Shown: piece after piece, positions 28,517-54,239 of the stretch
How positions within the stretch are numbered: position 1 is the first letter of the stretch
Layout: each line of letters opens with the position of its first letter
Origin: Bdellovibrio bacteriovorus
GTDB taxonomy: Bacteria > Bdellovibrionota > Bdellovibrionia > Bdellovibrionales > Bdellovibrionaceae
DNA length: 64,000 nt
NCBI RefSeq assembly: GCF_001592735.1
Contig: NZ_LUKE01000001.1
Coordinates: 1,523,018 to 1,587,017 of the forward strand
Reading direction: 5' to 3'
The notes under the pieces: model-generated
Told to the model about the DNA's origin: nothing
Database searches by the model: none
Seen by the model: only the letters and a program-made list of their open reading frames with translations
Position numbers and translations under genes: made by a program

Positions 28517-29083
28517 TTATCTGCGATGATTTTTAGAGGTGCCGAGTTGTTCTTCGGCATCTCTTTTCATATCTGGGGCAACGGCTTCCCAAGTGTCTTC
28601 AGGACGGCTTGGAAGGATCGCCGAACCACCTAAAACAAGTTCACCACGAGTGGCTGAAGCTTGCAAAGAGATCAGTTTCTGGGACTCTTTGGTGAAGCCT
28701 CTCACAGTCAGGCTAAGGTCTACGATCTGGCCTGTTTTTACGTTCGCGAGGGAATCTTTTACTGAACCTGATACGACTTGAACGCCTTCAGGCATGTGCC
28801 ATGTGTAGTTCAAATCTCCTTGCAGGTCTTGGTTTACCAAGATTCTTCCGCGCAATACAGTTTCGCCGTCACCATCTTCAGGAATGCTTTCTGGTTTTGC
28901 GATTTCAACTTTTAAGAGGGCTAGATGTTTTCCGACCGGAGCAGGAATCCACGGAATTCTTTTTCCTTCTACAGACGCGGGGCCACGATGGGCGGCGCGC
29001 GCTTTATCTTTAAAGTAAGCGGCACCTGAAATCCCGAAGAGCAAGCCTAGAAGTAATACTGTTAAGGTCTTTCTGTTCCGCAT
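28517..29083 (-). CDS. Membrane-anchored periplasmic protein of unknown function
   Basis: 188 aa. An N-terminal anchor (TLTVLLLGLLFGISGAAYF) is followed by a beta-rich domain (residues 55-155) and a charged C-terminus. The LNYTWHMPEGVQVVSGS region resembles immunoglobulin-like or DUF-type domains found in secreted proteins, but I do not recognise the family. Its start lies 22 bp inside the end of the metalloprotease gene, so the two are probably translated from one message. Confidence 0.7.
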   Translation of the reverse strand: MRNRKTLTVLLLGLLFGISGAAYFKDKARAAHRGPASVEGKRIPWIPAPVGKHLALLKVEIAKPESIPEDGDGETVLRGRILVNQDLQGDLNYTWHMPEGVQVVSGSVKDSLANVKTGQIVDLSLTVRGFTKESQKLISLQASATRGELVLGGSAILPSRPEDTWEAVAPDMKRDAEEQLGTSKNHRR

Positions 29084-31047
29084 AGCTGCTGGCTCCCGTT
29101 TTTGGTGATCGTGTAAGTCGCGTTGCCGTTAAGTTCATATTGAAGTTTGTTGTAAGCATTGATTTTTACATTCAACATGTAAATACCTGCAGGTAGACCC
29201 GAAAGATTGATGGTTTCGGCTCCGGAAGCATTGCGACTTGTTCTTGCGACAAAGTTTGAAGACTTTCCGGCATAAGCGTAGTCATCCTCAAAATACACGT
29301 AAGATCCATAATAAAGAATCAGATCCAAATTCAAAGTGGCACTGCCACTGGTGGTGTAGTTCATAGTGAGCGTCGCCGCTTGGCCGTCATGATAATACAG
29401 ATAGAAGTCATTATTCATTTGTTGGTCAGAGCGCTTCACGGTGTCCCGGCTAGTCATCAATTTTTCAGTTGTTCCGTTGGTGAACGTATAACTGCAACCC
29501 GTTCCAGCTTGCAGATAGTAGGCATAGTTTTCTGTGGTCTTAGTCTGTTTTTCCTCATTTAGGATAGAATTCCACGCTGAGGATGAAACGCCATTTTTTG
29601 AAAGCATCCAGTTCATCAAACCCATATTGGAAATTGGGAATACGGTTGTATTTGCAAAGCTGTAATAAGCAGGGCTTGCGTGGGTAGAAACATTTTTTTC
29701 TTCACCAGAAAACACTTTCCAGACGTCCTTAAACAGAACGCCGCCGCCAGTTTTTGAGCCTGTGTAAATAGAGGCCGTATTGCGAGTCGACTTATAAAGG
29801 GAACGTGAAACGGAGACTTCACGGAACATACCAGTGCCGGCGGGGTCGGATGCTACACTGTCATATTGAGAGACGTCCGTGCCGTCTGCCGCAAGATTAA
29901 AGGCGATGGCAACACCCGCGTTGTTTCCCGAACCTTTATAACCATAGGTATCCACGTAATAGTGATAGCGTTTGGTCGCGGGGATGTCCGTTTCTAAGTA
30001 AGCGCCGTTAGAACCATTCGCGTCTGCGCCTGTGAGGACAGCTCCTTGGAAATAGTTCGCCCAACCCTCACTCCATGCTAAGCGCGCATCGATCACAAAG
30101 TTACCAGTGTGCGATCCGCCTGGGGATTGTGAGCTGCCGTAAACGTCTTCTAAAAAATGGCCGTATTCATGCAAGATCACCGAATCATCAAAGTGATCCG
30201 TGTCGGCAGACTTCACGTTGCCGCTGACTCCACCCAAGATGTAGAGTTTGCGATCACCCGGGGAATAAAACGACAGCGGTGTAGTGTTATTAAAGTAAGT
30301 GTAAGGATTAAAGCCGGCCTTCCAATAGACCGTGACCTTTTCGGCCACGAACCATTTATTGGTGTCGGCAACGGGTGTTCCGGCGACGTCACCGTTTTTA
30401 TTGATGTTACGGCGCAGGTATTCGTTGGCTAAAAGAATATTGAACATGATGTTGAAAGCGCCGCCCTCAATTTTTGCGGAAAGACTTTCGTTAGCTTCGG
30501 CATATAAGGGAGAAGTGGAAATGTTCTTTGTGCCGGCAGCGATATCTGTCGCATCTATCGTGAAACTGCGAGAGATGTTGTACGGAGTATTAGAATAGAT
30601 GTCTTCTAAGACACTAACCTTGATGTAATCATTTAAAGCGCGAGAGAAGACTTTTAATGTATAAGTGCCAGCGGTTTTTGGAATTTTAAATTCTGCAATA
30701 CCCGCTGTTGTCGTTTCGCCTTGTTGGATACGATTTCCGGCAGCATCGTAAATATGAAACTCTGCAAATGGAATGGGGGCTGCATTCGCCGCGCTAACCA
30801 CGGCGCCAAGACCGTTAGTGCTTGAGCCCGGTGTGAAGTCGAGCTGGCGGTAAAGGAATTTTGCTGACGCCGTTACTCTTACGGCAGAGGCATCCGCGAT
30901 GTCCGTCGGTTTGCCATAGTAGGCTGGTTCAGGAGTTGCGGGTGTCGTGGATCCGTAGTCATTTCCCTGAAAGGAATTGCCACAGCCAACAGTAAATAAG
31001 AGTGTCAGGGAGCTAAAAGCACCCACCAGGATCTGGTTCAACGTCAT
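29062..31047 (-). CDS. Secreted lipoprotein zinc metalloprotease
   Basis: 661 aa. The signal peptide ends in a lipobox (LFTVGCGNS, Cys22). A carboxypeptidase-regulatory-like or Ig-type domain follows at about residues 55-150, then a gluzincin-type catalytic domain: HEYGH (His293, His297) and EGWANYF, where Glu327 is the likely third zinc ligand. The C-terminal 120 residues resemble a pre-peptidase or beta-sandwich domain. It is probably on the outer membrane or outside the cell and could act on prey proteins, which is inference. The downstream 188-aa gene overlaps it. Confidence 0.8.
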   Translation of the reverse strand: MTLNQILVGAFSSLTLLFTVGCGNSFQGNDYGSTTPATPEPAYYGKPTDIADASAVRVTASAKFLYRQLDFTPGSSTNGLGAVVSAANAAPIPFAEFHIYDAAGNRIQQGETTTAGIAEFKIPKTAGTYTLKVFSRALNDYIKVSVLEDIYSNTPYNISRSFTIDATDIAAGTKNISTSPLYAEANESLSAKIEGGAFNIMFNILLANEYLRRNINKNGDVAGTPVADTNKWFVAEKVTVYWKAGFNPYTYFNNTTPLSFYSPGDRKLYILGGVSGNVKSADTDHFDDSVILHEYGHFLEDVYGSSQSPGGSHTGNFVIDARLAWSEGWANYFQGAVLTGADANGSNGAYLETDIPATKRYHYYVDTYGYKGSGNNAGVAIAFNLAADGTDVSQYDSVASDPAGTGMFREVSVSRSLYKSTRNTASIYTGSKTGGGVLFKDVWKVFSGEEKNVSTHASPAYYSFANTTVFPISNMGLMNWMLSKNGVSSSAWNSILNEEKQTKTTENYAYYLQAGTGCSYTFTNGTTEKLMTSRDTVKRSDQQMNNDFYLYYHDGQAATLTMNYTTSGSATLNLDLILYYGSYVYFEDDYAYAGKSSNFVARTSRNASGAETINLSGLPAGIYMLNVKINAYNKLQYELNGNATYTITKNGSQQLCGTERP

Positions 31048-33395: not shown

Positions 33396-34265
33396 TTGGA
33401 TTTAGCTCTGCAATTAGAAAAGGAAATGTCTTTGCGTGTGCAGACGGTGAATGAGGCCGTTGAAGCCTACCTGTCGGAAATATCTCTTCCGCAAGTCGAA
33501 TCCATGCTTGAATTGCGCAAGTCCATGCTTTATTCCGCAACAAACGGGGGCAAGCGCTTCCGTCCGGTGCTTTCTCTTTTGGTAGCAGATCTATTTGGTG
33601 CTTCAGCAGAACGTGTTCTGCCTTTTGCTATTGCGGTGGAAATGATTCACACCTATTCCCTGATTCATGATGATCTTCCGTGCATGGATAATGATGATAT
33701 CCGCCGTGGCAAGCCCACCAATCACAAAGTGTATGGGGAAGACTTTGCATTGTTAGCAGGCGATGCGCTTTTAACTGAAGCTTTTTTCTTACTCGCTGAT
33801 AAATACGGCGATACTAGTCACTTGTCTGCGACTTTGATCAAACTTCTCTCGGAGGCCGCAGGCCTTCGCGGCATGGTCGGTGGTCAAGCCATTGACTTAC
33901 GTGCGGGGAAAAAACGTTTTACTTTAGAAGAACTTACTCAGCTGCATTTGCTTAAAACCGGCGCTTTGATTCGAGTGGCGGCTGAAGGGGCGGCGATCAT
34001 CGCAGGCGCAAGGCCCACCCAGATTGAAAGCTTAAGAAAATTTGGTGAAGGCCTGGGCTTAGCATTCCAAGTGGCCGATGATATTTTGGATCACGGTGAA
34101 AAAGATCAAGATGCGCGCAGCTTTACGGGTATCTTGGGCATGGAGCCGACGAAAGATTATTTGCGAAATCTAAGTTCGGAAATTCGGGCAGAGCTTCACA
34201 AGGTTTCTGGACAGGCTCCTCTTTTGGAATACCTGATTGATTTTAATCAAAACCGCAGTCACTAA
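33396..34265 (+). CDS. ispA: Farnesyl/geranyl diphosphate synthase
   Basis: 289 aa prenyltransferase that condenses isopentenyl diphosphate to farnesyl diphosphate, a precursor of undecaprenyl carrier and quinones. The first Asp-rich motif is DDLPCMDNDD, the second DDILD, and GGKRFRP is the substrate site. The start is a TTG with GAGG ten bases before it. In many bacteria the xseAB-ispA cluster continues with dxs; here tlyA follows directly. Confidence 0.93.
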   Translation: MDLALQLEKEMSLRVQTVNEAVEAYLSEISLPQVESMLELRKSMLYSATNGGKRFRPVLSLLVADLFGASAERVLPFAIAVEMIHTYSLIHDDLPCMDNDDIRRGKPTNHKVYGEDFALLAGDALLTEAFFLLADKYGDTSHLSATLIKLLSEAAGLRGMVGGQAIDLRAGKKRFTLEELTQLHLLKTGALIRVAAEGAAIIAGARPTQIESLRKFGEGLGLAFQVADDILDHGEKDQDARSFTGILGMEPTKDYLRNLSSEIRAELHKVSGQAPLLEYLIDFNQNRSH

Positions 34266-34268
34266 AAT

Positions 34269-35057
34269 ATGAGCGACAAGGCAAGTTCAAAAACCCGATT
34301 AGATGTTTGGTTGATGGAAAAAGGCTTAGCCTCTTCGCGCACGCAGGCCCAAGACTTGATTGCTGCGGGTCAGGTTTTTTTACATTCAAAAAACGGCAAA
34401 AAAACTTTAAACAAATCTAGCTTTGCGGTTGAGCCTGAAATGGCAGATCTGATTTCGGTAGAATCGGGTGCGGCCAATCGTTTTGTTTCTCGCGGGGGAT
34501 TAAAACTTGAAGGTGCGTTAGAACATGTGAAGTTAAACCTCCAAGGTCTTAACGCTTTAGATGTTGGGATTTCAACGGGCGGATTTACCGACTGTCTTTT
34601 GCAAAAAGGCGTTTCTTCGGTGGTTGGCGTGGACGTCGGCCATGGGCAAGTTCATAAATCTCTTTTGGGACATGCAAGGCTGCGGGTTTTTGAAGGCATC
34701 AATGCCCGAAGTCTCAGCCAAGAGCCGGGCGTTTTAGCCGCCAAACCGGAAGGTGGGTTTGATTTAGCCGTCATGGATGTCTCTTTCATCTCGATCACGC
34801 TGATCATTCCAGAAATTTACTCACTGCTTAAAAAAGAGGGTGTGCTTTTAAGTCTGGTTAAGCCCCAATTTGAAGTCGGGATTGACGGCCTCTCTAAGGG
34901 GGGTATAGTCAAAGATGTTTCTAAATACGCAGAGGTTGAAGCCAAAATCAAAGACCTATGTGCCTCTTGCGGTTTTAAAGTAATGGACTATTTTTCTTCA
35001 TCGATTTTGGGAAAGGACGGGAACAATGAGTTCTTCATCTATGCTAAAAAGATCTAG
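34269..35057 (+). CDS. tlyA: TlyA-family rRNA 2'-O-methyltransferase
   Basis: 262 aa. An N-terminal S4 RNA-binding domain (RLDVWLMEKGLASSRTQAQ) precedes a FtsJ-like methyltransferase (ALDVGISTGGFTDCLLQ, SAM-binding; LAVMDVSFIS; LVKPQFEVG). TlyA proteins methylate ribosomal cytidines in 16S and sometimes 23S rRNA. It begins 3 bp after ispA, and its last 32 bp overlap the start of the patatin-like gene. Confidence 0.92.
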   Translation: MSDKASSKTRLDVWLMEKGLASSRTQAQDLIAAGQVFLHSKNGKKTLNKSSFAVEPEMADLISVESGAANRFVSRGGLKLEGALEHVKLNLQGLNALDVGISTGGFTDCLLQKGVSSVVGVDVGHGQVHKSLLGHARLRVFEGINARSLSQEPGVLAAKPEGGFDLAVMDVSFISITLIIPEIYSLLKKEGVLLSLVKPQFEVGIDGLSKGGIVKDVSKYAEVEAKIKDLCASCGFKVMDYFSSSILGKDGNNEFFIYAKKI

Positions 35058-36051
35058 CTTGGTTGTGATGTTATTATTCTTGGCAAGTTGCCAATCTATC
35101 CGGACACGCGAAGACATTCGCAAAGGCACTCACCCAGGAAAAACTTCTACACAGGGTACGATGTCACCGACCACTCCCACAGCGCCCTCAAGTCCTAACT
35201 TTGGTACACCACCTCCACCAGATGGTGACGGGGATGACGAAGACATGGCGGCAGCTCCGCCACCACCTCCTGCGCCGGTCATTCCGTCTATGCCGAAGAT
35301 TGCATTTATCTTAGGTGGCGGGGGCGCAAAAACATATGCGCACGTGGGATTTTTACATGAACTTGTGCGTGCGAAAGTTCCAGTGCAAGCCATTGCCGGT
35401 GTCGAATTTGCGGCTCCTATGGCGGCTCTGTTTGCGACTCGTGAACAAGCCAACGACGTTGAATGGCAAATGTTTAAGTTAAAAGACGAAGAGGTTATTA
35501 AAAAATCTCTTTTAGGTTCGGTAAATAAAAACGGTGAAGTCACAGTTTTAAAAGAATTTTTGGGCACGGCTTTTAATCGCACGAAAGTCGAAGACTTCCG
35601 TATTCCTTTTGCCTGTCCGTCTTACAATTTAAAGAAAAACCAAGTATTCATGATGAATCGTGGTGGTTTAGACCAAATCATGTACACGTGCATGGCTTAT
35701 CCGCCATTCTTTAAGCCTTACCAAAATAATATCGCCGGCATCCGTGATATTTCGGCTTTGGCGGCTTACTTACGTACCAAGGGTGCGAATTTCGTGGTCC
35801 TGGTGAACGTATTGCAAGCGCCGGGCGGCACGAAACCTTACACGATGGACGTAGCGGCAACTGACAACGTCTTATGGAGTGAGATCGGGGGCTTATATAA
35901 TAAGCCTTTCACAGGAGTTGACACTGTGATCTCCCTAGATACGTCGGCTTATGGTATTATGGATTTTGAGAAACGTCGTGAGATCATGAGCAAGGGCGCA
36001 GACTCTGCCGCTAAACAGCTTAAAGTTCTAACGCGTAAATGGGGACTGTAG
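35026..36051 (+). CDS. Patatin-like lipoprotein lacking the catalytic serine
   Basis: 341 aa. A lipoprotein signal (LLFLASCQS), a Pro-rich low-complexity linker to about residue 85, then a patatin fold: ILGGGGAKTYAHVGFLHEL (oxyanion glycine motif) and the PPFFKPY segment. The nucleophile elbow GxSxG reads GVEFA, with Glu127 where the Ser should be. The acid motif DGG reads DIS (Asp241). It is therefore probably not an active phospholipase. Two starts (35026, 35041) are possible, both inside tlyA. Confidence 0.82.
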   Translation: MSSSSMLKRSSLVVMLLFLASCQSIRTREDIRKGTHPGKTSTQGTMSPTTPTAPSSPNFGTPPPPDGDGDDEDMAAAPPPPPAPVIPSMPKIAFILGGGGAKTYAHVGFLHELVRAKVPVQAIAGVEFAAPMAALFATREQANDVEWQMFKLKDEEVIKKSLLGSVNKNGEVTVLKEFLGTAFNRTKVEDFRIPFACPSYNLKKNQVFMMNRGGLDQIMYTCMAYPPFFKPYQNNIAGIRDISALAAYLRTKGANFVVLVNVLQAPGGTKPYTMDVAATDNVLWSEIGGLYNKPFTGVDTVISLDTSAYGIMDFEKRREIMSKGADSAAKQLKVLTRKWGL

Positions 36052-36061
36052 GAGATTCCAA

Positions 36062-37381
36062 ATGAGAAAGCCCACTATTGATATGAATGTGTTTGCTCAA
36101 CGTCGGGCAAACTTAGCCTCTAAACTTCAAGGCGCAGCTCTTGTGGTGGCTTCTCACCCGGAATACATTCGTAATGACGATGTTCACTATCCGTATCGCC
36201 AAGATTCAAACCTTTTTTATCTTACGGGCTGGGAAGAGCCAGAATCTGTTTTCATTTTCCGTCCGGGCTTAAAGCCAGAAACGGTGATGTTTGTCCGTCG
36301 TCGTGATCCAGAAAGAGAAACCTGGGATGGTTTCCGTTATGGGCCAGAAGGTTGTGAGCGCGAATTTAAAATTGAAAAATGTTATCCGATTGATGAGTTC
36401 GCTAAAGAAGCGCCAAAACTTTTAAAAGAAGTGGATAGCGTTTACTACCGCCAATTCAAAAATCAGGCGATGGACACAAAACTCAGCGAAGCGATGCAAG
36501 AAGTTGAGCGCATGAAGTCTCGTTCGGGTTACGGAATGATGCCAATGCATGATGCAGACATTCTTTTGGGTGAAGCACGTTTAGTAAAATCTGAATACGA
36601 ACTTATCCAACTGCGCGAAGCTTGTGAAATCAGCGCGCAAGCTCACCTAGCAGCCATGCGTTTTACTCGTCCGGGTGTGAATGAAAGACACATTCAAGGT
36701 GTGTTGGCGCATCAGTTCTATATGCGCGGATCGGCGCGTGAAGGTTATAACTTTATTGTGGCGTCCGGGAATTCGGCGACGACTTTGCATTACAACTTTA
36801 ACGATCAAGTCTGCAAAGATGGTGATCTGTTATTGATTGATGCCGGGGCGGAATACAATTACTACACCGGCGACATCACTCGCACCTTCCCGGTGAATGG
36901 AAAATTCACGGACGAACAAGGCCGGGTGTATGAAGCCGTTTTAAACGTTCAGAAACGTATTATTGATTTCATCAAGCCAGGTATTTTCTTTAAAGATTTG
37001 CATGAAATGGGAACATCCCTTTTAACCGACGCAATGTTAGAACTTGGTTTATTATCTGGTCGCAAAGATGATTTGATCCAAGCGCTTGCACAGAAAAAAT
37101 ACTATCCGCATGGCATTGGCCACTGGTTAGGTATGGATGTGCACGACGCGGGAATGTACGCGATCAAGGGTGAACCGCGTCCGATCGAAGCCAATATGTG
37201 CTTTACAATTGAGCCCGGGCTTTATATCCCCGCGGATGATTCCTCGGCGCCTCAAAAATATCGCGGTATTGGAATTCGTATCGAAGACAATATCCGTGTG
37301 ACTTCTAATGGGTCAGAAAATATGACGTCTTCCGTGCCTAAAGAAATTACGGATATCGAGCAAGTCGTCGGTAAATCCTAA
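36062..37381 (+). CDS. pepP: Xaa-Pro aminopeptidase P
   Basis: 439 aa M24 metallopeptidase that removes N-terminal residues before proline. An N-terminal creatinase-like domain (HYPYRQDSNLFYLTGWEEPE) precedes the pita-bread domain with the two-metal ligands: LLIDAGAEYNYYTGDITRTF (two Asp), HGIGHWLGMDVHD (His), FTIEPGLYIP (Glu) and GIRIEDNI (Glu). No signal peptide, so it is cytoplasmic. A Shine-Dalgarno AGGAG precedes the ATG. Confidence 0.94.
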   Translation: MRKPTIDMNVFAQRRANLASKLQGAALVVASHPEYIRNDDVHYPYRQDSNLFYLTGWEEPESVFIFRPGLKPETVMFVRRRDPERETWDGFRYGPEGCEREFKIEKCYPIDEFAKEAPKLLKEVDSVYYRQFKNQAMDTKLSEAMQEVERMKSRSGYGMMPMHDADILLGEARLVKSEYELIQLREACEISAQAHLAAMRFTRPGVNERHIQGVLAHQFYMRGSAREGYNFIVASGNSATTLHYNFNDQVCKDGDLLLIDAGAEYNYYTGDITRTFPVNGKFTDEQGRVYEAVLNVQKRIIDFIKPGIFFKDLHEMGTSLLTDAMLELGLLSGRKDDLIQALAQKKYYPHGIGHWLGMDVHDAGMYAIKGEPRPIEANMCFTIEPGLYIPADDSSAPQKYRGIGIRIEDNIRVTSNGSENMTSSVPKEITDIEQVVGKS

Positions 37382-37395
37382 GCGTCCGAAAGTCG

Positions 37396-37417
37396 ATCGC
37401 CGAAGTTCTTCGGCGAT
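37396..37417. other. Hairpin without U tract
   Basis: Perfect 9-bp stem ATCGCCGAA / TTCGGCGAT with a four-base loop, directly after pepP. No U tract follows, so it may stabilise the 3' end rather than terminate. Confidence 0.4.
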
Positions 37418-37458
37418 ATCTTCAAAGCATTTAAAGATTGATACATTCTTTGCAAAAA

Positions 37459-37486
37459 AAGAAAGCGGCTCCAAGGCCGCTTTCTT
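37459..37486. terminator. Rho-independent terminator after pepP
   Basis: Perfect 11-bp stem (AAGAAAGCGGC / GCCGCTTTCTT) with a six-base loop and a preceding A-rich tract. It ends the xseA-pepP transcript and lies just before the small lipoprotein gene at 37522. Confidence 0.8.
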
Positions 37487-37521
37487 AGGACTAGAGCATC
37501 CTTCTGAACAAGGAGAACTCT

Positions 37522-37626
37522 ATGAAAAGTTGTCATACCACCAAGTATGAAGCTATTCGGTTTTTTAAAGAATTTCTTAAGTGGGCAGTGTTAGCGATAT
37601 TTTTATTGCTAACCTCCTGCGGATAG
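37522..37626 (+). CDS. Very small lipoprotein (34 aa)
   Basis: An ATG preceded by AAGGAGAACTCT opens a 34-codon frame ending in TAG. The product has a basic N-terminal stretch, a hydrophobic core (WAVLAIFLLLTSCG) and a lipobox LTSC immediately followed by Gly and the stop, so the mature product would be a lipid-modified Cys-Gly. It resembles entericidin-type peptides, although it lacks their C-terminal part. It is flanked by terminators and sits alone between pepP and the convergent kinase gene. Missed by length filters. Confidence 0.6.
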   Translation: MKSCHTTKYEAIRFFKEFLKWAVLAIFLLLTSCG

Positions 37627-37753
37627 ATTGATTTGAACCTCTTAAGGGCTTAACTGTATCATTCTAACACAATCAAGCGAGTGGGCGCGCTCGGCTTAAA
37701 ACCGAGGATAGAACTCATGGAAGAGGTGGCTTTGGGGTCACTACCATTTGGCG

Positions 37754-38539
37754 TCAGAAGAATTCATCGAGCAATTTGTAGAATTCCAACTTTTCTTCGT
37801 CTAATTTGGTGATCAATCCGTAAGATTCTAAAAACTCGGTTTGAAAGCTATCTCCTAAATTTCTTTCAAGACTATTAAAACATATAGCCAAGTCCTGATG
37901 CCTGTCGGCGACACCTGCGCGGCCCAGATCAATAAAGCCGCTGAAACTTGATCGTTCGGCAATAAGATTTGGCAGGCTGAAATCCCCATGAGTCACAACC
38001 AGGTCTTCGCTTTTAGGAATGTTTTTGTCTAACTCGACAAGCAGTCGTTCTAAACTCCAGCCTTTTCGGGAATCGTCAAAGTCTTCGAGGTCCACAAGTC
38101 CGTCGTGCAAGCGTTGCTTTGCCCAGGGTATTTTTACTTGCAGTTTTTGATCTAAGGGGCAGTTTGCATAAGGAATCATATGAAGCTGGCGCATCGCTAT
38201 TGCACAAATGTTTACAATTTCCAGGTTTGAAAGCTCCGAGACCCAGGCGGAAAGGTCTTTCCCCTGCAGCGCACTAGTTAATAGATAACTAAAAGGTCCT
38301 TGAGAGCCATCAGCCAAAACTTCAGCCGCTGAAATATGTTGATTTAGCCACAAAGCTGCAGCGATTTCGTGAGTAAAATAATTATCGCTATTGTTGGCAT
38401 GTGTTTTAAGAAAAGCTTTGTTTCCATTTTTAAGTGTGACCTTAAAACAAGAATCTCCGGACTCCCCGACGTTGACCTGCTCCCAAGGCATGTCGGCTTG
38501 GATTAGCTGGGTTATTTCTTCAGGAAGATGGCTTTTCAT
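37754..38539 (-). CDS. APH(3')-like aminoglycoside phosphotransferase family kinase
   Basis: 261 aa, close to the 264 aa of APH(3') enzymes. The catalytic motif VVTHGDFSLPNLI has the catalytic Asp and metal Asn, FIDLGRAGVADRHQDLAICF holds the second metal Asp, and an N-terminal Lys (KAFLKTHANN) and Glu (FTHEIAAALW) serve ATP. The C-terminus YKLLDEFF also follows APH(3'). Aminoglycoside phosphorylation is possible, but a metabolic small-molecule kinase is also possible. It lies 20 bp after the HAD gene, on the same strand. Confidence 0.85.
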   Translation of the reverse strand: MKSHLPEEITQLIQADMPWEQVNVGESGDSCFKVTLKNGNKAFLKTHANNSDNYFTHEIAAALWLNQHISAAEVLADGSQGPFSYLLTSALQGKDLSAWVSELSNLEIVNICAIAMRQLHMIPYANCPLDQKLQVKIPWAKQRLHDGLVDLEDFDDSRKGWSLERLLVELDKNIPKSEDLVVTHGDFSLPNLIAERSSFSGFIDLGRAGVADRHQDLAICFNSLERNLGDSFQTEFLESYGLITKLDEEKLEFYKLLDEFF

Positions 38540-52388: not shown

Positions 52389-52988
52389 ATGAAAAAGAAT
52401 TTAACATTGGCTTTGCTTTCATTGTCTTTCATTGCGACCGTAAGCTGCGGTCCAAAAGCGTTCGTGAAAGGTCAATATGATGACGTTAACCGCGAAAATT
52501 TGATGAATGACCAATGGTCCGAAACTGATATGCAAAAAGCTGTTCAGGATTTGGTAGCAAGCTTAATGAATTCTCCGATCATTACACAGTCTAAAAAAAT
52601 GCCGGTGGTGATGGTTACAAATCTTCAAAATAAAACCAGCGAGCATATCGATACTCAAAGTATTATGGACATGGTTCGTGTAGAGCTTATGCAATCTGGC
52701 CGAGTGGCATTCATCGATAAAGAGGCTCGCCAAGATATCTCTGACGAATACAACTATCAAAACTCTGGCATGGTAGAAGACGCTTCTAAAAAAGGTCCCG
52801 GCGGTCAAATTGGTGCGGATTTCATCATCAACGGTCGTCTTGATTCTATCGTGCAAGAAGTCGGCAAAGATAAGTCAGTGTACTATAAACTGACTTTGAA
52901 TCTGACGAACCTTAAAACCAGCATGATTCAATGGACGAACCAAAAGCAAATCCGTAAGACGTTCAAAAAGAAATCTATCGGTCTGTAA
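52389..52988 (+). CDS. LpoB-like lipoprotein
   Basis: 199 aa with a lipobox (FIATVSCGPK). The domain PVVMVTNLQNKTSEHIDTQ and VELMQSGRVAFIDKEARQDI matches COG3417 (LpoB), the outer-membrane activator of penicillin-binding protein 1B. The following gene encodes COG3014, and the pair is a common arrangement. A role in activating a PBP during wall synthesis is probable. Starts with GAGGGAAGGTTTT upstream of the ATG. Confidence 0.85.
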   Translation: MKKNLTLALLSLSFIATVSCGPKAFVKGQYDDVNRENLMNDQWSETDMQKAVQDLVASLMNSPIITQSKKMPVVMVTNLQNKTSEHIDTQSIMDMVRVELMQSGRVAFIDKEARQDISDEYNYQNSGMVEDASKKGPGGQIGADFIINGRLDSIVQEVGKDKSVYYKLTLNLTNLKTSMIQWTNQKQIRKTFKKKSIGL

Positions 52989-52991
52989 TTC

Positions 52992-54239
52992 ATGATTTTT
53001 AATCTGCAAAGACTCACGCTGGTCGTGGGTCTTTTTTTTGTGAGCGGTCTTTTGGGTTGTGCGACCTATCAGAGCAAGGTCGAAACGGCTCGCACCGCCA
53101 TTGAAACAGGGAATCCGGATAAAGCCGTTAAAGAGTTAAAGCCCCTGGCAGAAAAAGAAGACGGCGATCAGTTAGTTTATTTATTAGACTATGCGACAGC
53201 CCTGCAGATCGCGGGCGATATCAAAGAAAGTAATAAAGCCTTTTTAAAAGCAGATAGACTTGCTGATCAGGTGGACTATCAATCCATTTCGCGTATCGCG
53301 GGGTCACTCGCTTTGAACGAAGAAATGGTTCAGTACAAAGGCGACACTTTTGAAAAGATCTTTATCAACGCATATCTTGCGATGAATTTTTTAGAGATCG
53401 GCCAACTGGATGATGCTTTGGTTGAAGCTCGCCGTATCAATGAAAAGTACTTGAAATACCGTGCGGATGAAAAACAAAATTTCGAGTTAAACTCTTTCAG
53501 TAAATACTTATCCGCCATGATTTGGGAAGCCAATCGTAGTTATGACGATGCTTACATCGCCTATGCGGAAACCTATAAAATCGATCCTTCAATTTCGACT
53601 CTTGGCGAAGACCTCATTCGTTCGGCAAAATTAGCGCGACGAATGGATACCTACAAAGATTGGAAAAAGAAGTTTCCAGAAGTTCAAGAAGAGGACTCTT
53701 GGTATGACCGCCGCAAAGGAGAGCTGGTTATTCTTTTTCAACAAGGATGGGGACCGCGCAAACAGGCATCCAATAACGAATATCGCTTTCCGGTACTCCG
53801 GCCGGTCTTCAGTGAAACTCAAAAAGCGCGCTTAGTGATTTCTGATTCCAATAAAGTTTTAGTCAGTCAAAAAGTGTACGATGTGCAGGAAGCCGCTATT
53901 GCCACGTTAAGGGACGACCAAGGCATTTTATTAGCCAAGCGGGTTGCGGGTCTGGCGACAAAAGCTGTTTTATCGGATCAAGTTCGACAAAAAAATGAGG
54001 CCTTAGGTGCGTTAGCATGGGTCGCGATGAATATCGCCGATCGCGCCGATGTTCGGCAGTGGTCTTTCTTACCGCAAACAATTCAAACCATCCGCATTCA
54101 GCTCCCGCCGGGAAAATATAAATTCCGTCTGGAAGGTTTAACTCATGGACTGAGCGCCACGGGCGAAAATCTGGCAGACCGCGAAATCGAAATCAAAGCT
54201 GGTCAAAAGAAATTCGCCGTTTGGCGCTCTGTAAAATAA
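52992..54239 (+). CDS. COG3014-like tetratricopeptide lipoprotein
   Basis: 415 aa. The lipobox is FVSGLLGCATYQS. The next 200 residues are TPR-like helical repeats (KAVKELKPLAEKEDGDQLVYLLDYATAL; LDDALVEARRINEKYLKY), and the C-terminal part is beta-rich. It is consistent with COG3014, which is found next to LpoB-like proteins. The gene starts 3 bp after the LpoB-like stop and probably makes a partner for it in the outer membrane. Confidence 0.82.
   Translation: MIFNLQRLTLVVGLFFVSGLLGCATYQSKVETARTAIETGNPDKAVKELKPLAEKEDGDQLVYLLDYATALQIAGDIKESNKAFLKADRLADQVDYQSISRIAGSLALNEEMVQYKGDTFEKIFINAYLAMNFLEIGQLDDALVEARRINEKYLKYRADEKQNFELNSFSKYLSAMIWEANRSYDDAYIAYAETYKIDPSISTLGEDLIRSAKLARRMDTYKDWKKKFPEVQEEDSWYDRRKGELVILFQQGWGPRKQASNNEYRFPVLRPVFSETQKARLVISDSNKVLVSQKVYDVQEAAIATLRDDQGILLAKRVAGLATKAVLSDQVRQKNEALGALAWVAMNIADRADVRQWSFLPQTIQTIRIQLPPGKYKFRLEGLTHGLSATGENLADREIEIKAGQKKFAVWRSVK

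Follow-up and report, generated by a model that had tools for sequence, protein, structure and literature searches.

Bacterial patatins are usually annotated as phospholipases from their fold alone. Here we describe a patatin-fold lipoprotein of Bdellovibrio bacteriovorus that has neither residue of the catalytic Ser-Asp dyad, encoded at positions 35026..36051 on the forward strand (341 amino acids (aa), ATG start) of a 64,000-nucleotide stretch of DNA (RefSeq assembly GCF_001592735.1, contig NZ_LUKE01000001.1, positions 1,523,018 to 1,587,017), hereafter the window. The protein belongs to the patatin family by descent and fold, and alignments indicate that both residues are absent in every family member examined. 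Phylogenetic trees point to one ancient loss of the catalytic residues, common to most sampled families of the phylum Bdellovibrionota. We consider it probable that the product is an ancient patatin-fold pseudoenzyme that acts in the envelope by binding or regulation, possibly in connection with peptidoglycan synthesis. An earlier reading of the letters alone, hereafter the original prediction, had recognized the altered active site but missed both the single, phylum-shared loss and the relatives that adjoin a class A penicillin-binding protein (PBP) gene.

Domain architecture and the missing catalytic dyad

The original prediction of a patatin-like lipoprotein at these coordinates is borne out. 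The window protein matches the Pfam Patatin model PF01734 (E 3.7e-19; 70.1 bits, above the cut-off of 27.7), which is its sole Pfam match at E <= 1 and which also matches 47 of 52 diverse family members at E <= 0.001. The patatin domain is full-length and of the RssA/PlpD type. It is preceded by a lipoprotein signal peptide (35026..35091) that ends in the lipobox LASC and, as had been proposed, the protein is predicted to reside in the envelope, lipid-anchored at Cys22 (codon 35089-35091). All 123 members of the order that have a residue in this column have Cys (123/123), and a lipobox is present in nearly every family sampled. Between the lipobox and the domain lies a Pro-rich, poorly conserved linker (residues 23-88; 35092..35289).

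The glycine-rich segment GGGGAKTYAHVG and the elbow GVEFA align without gaps to the oxyanion motif and the GxSxG nucleophile elbow of PlpD, E. coli RssA, and other Ser-type patatins. The oxyanion glycines are intact, as originally noted; the motif reads GGGGAK in the window (residues 97-102; 35314..35331) and GPGG in most relatives, with Pro as its second residue in 51 of 67 phylum representatives. At the elbow (residues 125-129; 35398..35412), Glu127 (GAA, 35404-35406) replaces the catalytic Ser. A shifted alignment that would bring another Ser to the elbow is ruled out because the ungapped alignment fixes Glu127 in this position, and Ser occurs there in none of 124 order members and none of the 67 phylum members. 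Glu127 is shared across the genus and by most of the order, and the ratio of nonsynonymous to synonymous substitution (dN/dS) around the elbow is approximately 0.06, which excludes a sequencing error or chance.

The second half of the dyad required a correction. The original prediction was right that the Asp of the DGG motif is lost, but it had placed the site at DIS. When the protein is aligned with seven Ser-type patatins, the column of the catalytic Asp is occupied by Ala237 (35734..35736), in the segment NIAGIRDIS, where the triplet is AGI; Asp241 of DIS lies four positions past this column and aligns with a variable residue. The column contains Asp in all of the Ser-type patatins (7/7), whereas in the 67 phylum representatives it contains Ala (33), Ser (24), Gly (3), Asn (2), or Lys (1), and Asp was counted in none.

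Structure comparison agrees with a fold retained without the dyad. PlpD was the only solved structure matched by sequence (E 3.7e-07) and was also the best fold match to an AlphaFold model of the trimmed domain (Z 13.5, root-mean-square deviation 3.7, 162 residues), followed by other patatin-domain proteins. In this model, the elbow forms the turn between a strand (31-37) and a helix (40-52; trimmed numbering, in which E38 is Glu127). The models drew on an alignment with few relatives, and the predicted local distance difference test (pLDDT) score was 54 at full length and 59.5 for the trimmed domain, with core blocks mostly at 75-90 and domain residues 56-151 poorly modeled. As modeled, the fold is that of a patatin, with low confidence in the middle third.

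Conservation and single origin of the family

Of 141 genomes searched in the order, 126 carry the patatin lipoprotein, nearly always as a single copy, and all ten families are represented. When 124 non-redundant orthologues of the order were aligned, position 127 was occupied by Glu in 107 sequences and by Gly in the other 17, with no Ser; the codons are GAA/GAG and GGN, whose purine-ending forms are one base apart. A profile search across the phylum gave matches in 286 of 369 genomes, the weaker of which may include ordinary Ser-type patatins (for example locus L211). By family, position 127 is Glu in f11, f19, f20, f21, f24, and f26, Gly in f13, f14, and f15, mixed in f12, Asp in f27, and Asn in f16, and no Ser was seen at the elbow in f11-f27 representatives outside the Ser-type outgroups. 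Altogether, 38 relatives have Gly at the elbow.

With the elbow and DGG columns left out, a 74-row tree groups every non-Ser protein in a single clade (support 100/98) and shows one change from Ser to non-Ser. A larger quick tree, with 148 rows inside the non-Ser clade, concurs. Since all non-Ser proteins fall in one clade, Ser was lost once; Glu and Gly were interchanged several times thereafter. For comparison outside Bdellovibrionota, plasmids and E. coli RssA were used, and all four relatives retrieved from plasmids are Ser-type. Trp147 of the NxxEW motif (35464..35466) is invariant in the family (124/124 in the order, 67/67 in the phylum set). E. coli RssA has it too, which suggests an RssA-type ancestor.

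The patatin domain is clearly under purifying selection. Within the genus, the domain has a median dN/dS of 0.073, compared with 0.058 across residues 95-140 and 0.27 in the linker (residues 23-86); these values are rough because synonymous sites are near saturation (proportion of synonymous differences ~0.73). Identity within the genus is 55-77%, and the frame is open in nearly all of the 126 genomes, with one TAA listed in an incomplete genome. A further conserved feature is a pair of cysteines, Cys197 (35614..35616) and Cys222 (35689..35691), which are both present in 126 sequences, both absent in 43, and discordant in two (one truncated and one divergent). Exactly two cysteines follow the lipobox in 124 of 127 members of the order and f11. 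The natural reading of this co-occurrence is that Cys197 and Cys222 probably form a structural disulfide in the periplasm.

Other patatins were seen in a few genomes. In one genome assigned to f12 (L190; G152:C88), a contig encodes a patatin domain identical to the L034 domain (f1), and the genome also has a more typical copy of its own; assembly contamination is the probable cause. Six genomes of the genus (G015, G016, G018, G019, G023, and G026) contain an extra frame of 740-758 aa with a weak patatin-domain match, possibly PlpD-like; a search of the window genome (G000) with the window protein found no such extra frame.

Gene neighborhood and possible functions

In six families outside the window's order, the gene next downstream of the patatin, mostly within 30 bp, encodes a class A PBP: f12 (18/18), f20, f21, f24, f26 (10/11), and f27. 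Two of these PBPs were checked and both have Transgly and PCB_OB domains, the full-length one also having a Transpeptidase domain. Although widespread in the phylum, the linkage was not seen in f1-f11, the window's own family included. The PBP1A-type gene of the window genome lies at G000:C1:1196567, about 360 kb away, and the 7 kb around it contain no patatin.

In the window, the patatin lies in a block of genes on the forward strand. It is preceded by an ispA-like polyprenyl synthetase gene (33396..34265; Pfam polyprenyl_synt; upstream in 111 of 171 loci) and by tlyA (34269..35057), which encodes an S4 and FtsJ-like rRNA methyltransferase (Pfam S4, FtsJ; upstream in 113 of 171 loci), and it is followed by a pepP-like aminopeptidase P gene (36062..37381; Pfam AMP_N, Peptidase_M24; downstream in 115 of 171 loci). 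The whole block is found in the order and in its sister family f11. The position after tlyA had been noted originally, and the tlyA-patatin gene order is old, the adjacency being conserved well beyond the genus. The first 32 bases of the patatin open reading frame (ORF) overlap the 3' end of tlyA, and a plausible ribosome-binding site, AAAGGA (35012-35017), lies 8 bases 5' of its start. An Rfam scan of 34000-38000 and a tRNA search gave no matches, and promoter and terminator matches in the same region were at chance level. At that background, a strong stem with a T tail at 37459-37486 on the reverse strand, after pepP, may be a terminator close to the end of the block. In f13/f14 (L192, L194, L197-L199, and L217), a lipoprotein-like gene of approximately 458 aa lies downstream of the patatin, and the one member scanned gave no Pfam match.

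The account that we favor is as follows. Near the base of the phylum, an RssA-type patatin ancestor would have lost both catalytic residues, Ser and Asp, in one event. The window protein would be exported and lipidated on Cys22, and the Pro-rich tether would keep it in the periplasm, probably at the outer membrane. The domain would have been retained as a binding module: its glycine motif, the elements of the lipid groove, and the geometry of the elbow persist, which suggests that it may still recognize a lipid or acyl group. The side chain of Glu127 may fill the oxyanion site, and in the Bdellovibrio lineage a Cys197-Cys222 disulfide probably stabilizes the fold. The most likely action would be the binding of an acyl lipid or an envelope protein and not hydrolysis. 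Because a class A PBP gene directly follows the patatin in relatives, gene order suggests peptidoglycan synthesis as the best-supported context. The original prediction had offered a binding or regulatory role and a new activity side by side; both are retained here as the right alternatives, and we favor the former because Glu has been repeatedly replaced by Gly (17/124 in the order, with further cases elsewhere) without loss of the remainder of the domain.

Several points weigh against this account. Plant pPLAIII patatins, which lack the Ser and mostly the Asp, are reported to hydrolyze acyl groups (PMC4623698), so absence of the dyad is no proof of inactivity. In the window's order, no PBP gene adjoins the patatin and pepP stands in its place. 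Moreover, no functional logic is obvious in the conserved grouping with tlyA, ispA, and pepP, and hence the PBP adjacency may likewise reflect inheritance of an old gene order. Finally, the confidence of the AlphaFold models is middling (pLDDT 54 and 59.5) and the middle third of the domain is weak.

A more specific form of the favored account makes the protein a dedicated class A PBP partner: anchored as a lipoprotein in the outer membrane, it would extend across the wall, bind a PBP1A-type enzyme, and tune its glycan synthesis in the manner of LpoA/LpoB. The downstream PBP gene on the same strand in six families, the tether-like linker of the lipoprotein, and the PCB_OB domain in both PBPs checked are consistent with such a partnership; PCB_OB is the region of E. 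coli PBP1A that LpoA contacts. However, the PBP gene is not adjacent in the window's order, and a Pfam scan gave no similarity to LpoA (PF04348) or LpoB (PF13036). There is also no obviously vacant activator role, as LpoB-type proteins are found in 100 of 114 sampled phylum genomes, that of the window included, and LpoA-type matches in 68 of 114. On balance we regard the partnership as possible but doubtful. There is no support for the idea that the pseudopatatin substitutes for missing Lpo activators: both LpoA-like and LpoB-like proteins occur commonly in the phylum, and the pseudopatatin would act alongside them and not in their place. A bolder proposal is that this phylum-wide lipoprotein was converted from a lipase to a regulator of peptidoglycan synthesis. 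The dead active site of the pseudo-lipase would sense envelope lipid, and the protein would in turn control a class A PBP, thereby coupling the state of the membrane to wall growth in predators and their relatives; this is speculative and we would not expect it to hold in full.

Two other genes in the window concern the wall. An LpoB-family lipoprotein is encoded at 52389-52988 on the forward strand (PF13036, E 1.4e-42), followed by a longer lipoprotein-like ORF at 52992-54239 (+). At approximately 1274-1783 on the reverse strand, a 278-aa frame encodes a transglycosylase-domain protein (PF00912), probably monofunctional and MtgA-like.

The chief rival to a binding role is a non-canonical enzyme, either similar to pPLAIII (GxGxG) or with Glu127 as a carboxylate nucleophile or general base. 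The activity reported for pPLAIII (PMC4623698) lends itself to this explanation, as do the mostly conserved elbow, glycine motif, and residues at the Lys/Arg102 and His106 positions. Glu is also the commonest residue at the elbow and is kept in all sampled members of f1-f8, f11, and f26. However, several lineages have Gly, Asp, or Asn in place of Glu although the remainder is conserved, and a strictly required catalytic Glu is therefore unlikely. The lost Asp column holds no conserved acid (A, S, G, N, or K), and Pro as second residue of the oxyanion motif in 51 of 67 phylum representatives likewise argues against catalysis. We thus consider a non-canonical enzyme improbable. Loss of both catalytic residues is also what gene decay would yield, but decay, or an annotation or assembly artefact, is contradicted to the point of near-certainty by the open frame in nearly all of the 126 genomes, the 55-77% identity within the genus, the domain dN/dS of ~0.07, and the conserved position and lipobox.

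Elsewhere in the window, a 661-aa lipoprotein-like ORF at 29062-31047 (-) contains a zinc-protease-like motif, HEYGH.

Significance and comparison with known systems

Pseudoenzymes are well known in general, and plant patatins without the catalytic Ser have been described. What appears to be new is a phylum-wide family of bacterial lipoproteins in which the whole dyad was lost in one event; among open-license papers, we found none on such a Bdellovibrio patatin or on a dyad-less bacterial patatin-like lipoprotein family. As a conserved, mostly single-copy lipoprotein without the dyad in any member examined, the family makes the phospholipase annotation doubtful for hundreds of genes. It also offers a clean evolutionary case, a single loss of catalysis followed by long conservation. 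Furthermore, in a predator-rich phylum, it suggests that a lipid-binding fold may be linked to wall synthesis, a link open to testing, in organisms that have to remodel both their own envelope and that of their prey.

The nearest known systems are the RssA/PlpD-type patatins (PF01734; NF007623; PDB 5fqu, 5fya), which have the fold, the collinear motifs, and the C-terminal region in common with the window family, E. coli RssA also sharing its EW/DW motif. Unlike these proteins, the window family lacks the catalytic Ser and the DGG Asp, mostly has Pro in the glycine motif, and possesses a lipoprotein export signal and the Cys pair; E. coli RssA begins straight at the domain, without a lipobox. 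Against the RssA model NF007623, the window protein scores 25.9 bits, far below the cut-off of 272.

LpoA and LpoB are likewise envelope lipoproteins, and relatives of the pseudopatatin are genetically linked to a class A PBP with PCB_OB. However, they are unrelated to the pseudopatatin in sequence and coexist with it in the phylum.

In the plant pPLAIII patatins, the elbow Ser and usually the Asp are replaced and acyl-hydrolyzing activity has been reported (PMC4623698). Their GxGxG motif (PMC4204433) has Gly at the elbow, as in some relatives of the window family, whereas the window protein itself has Glu. The loss in pPLAIII is presumably independent of that in Bdellovibrionota.
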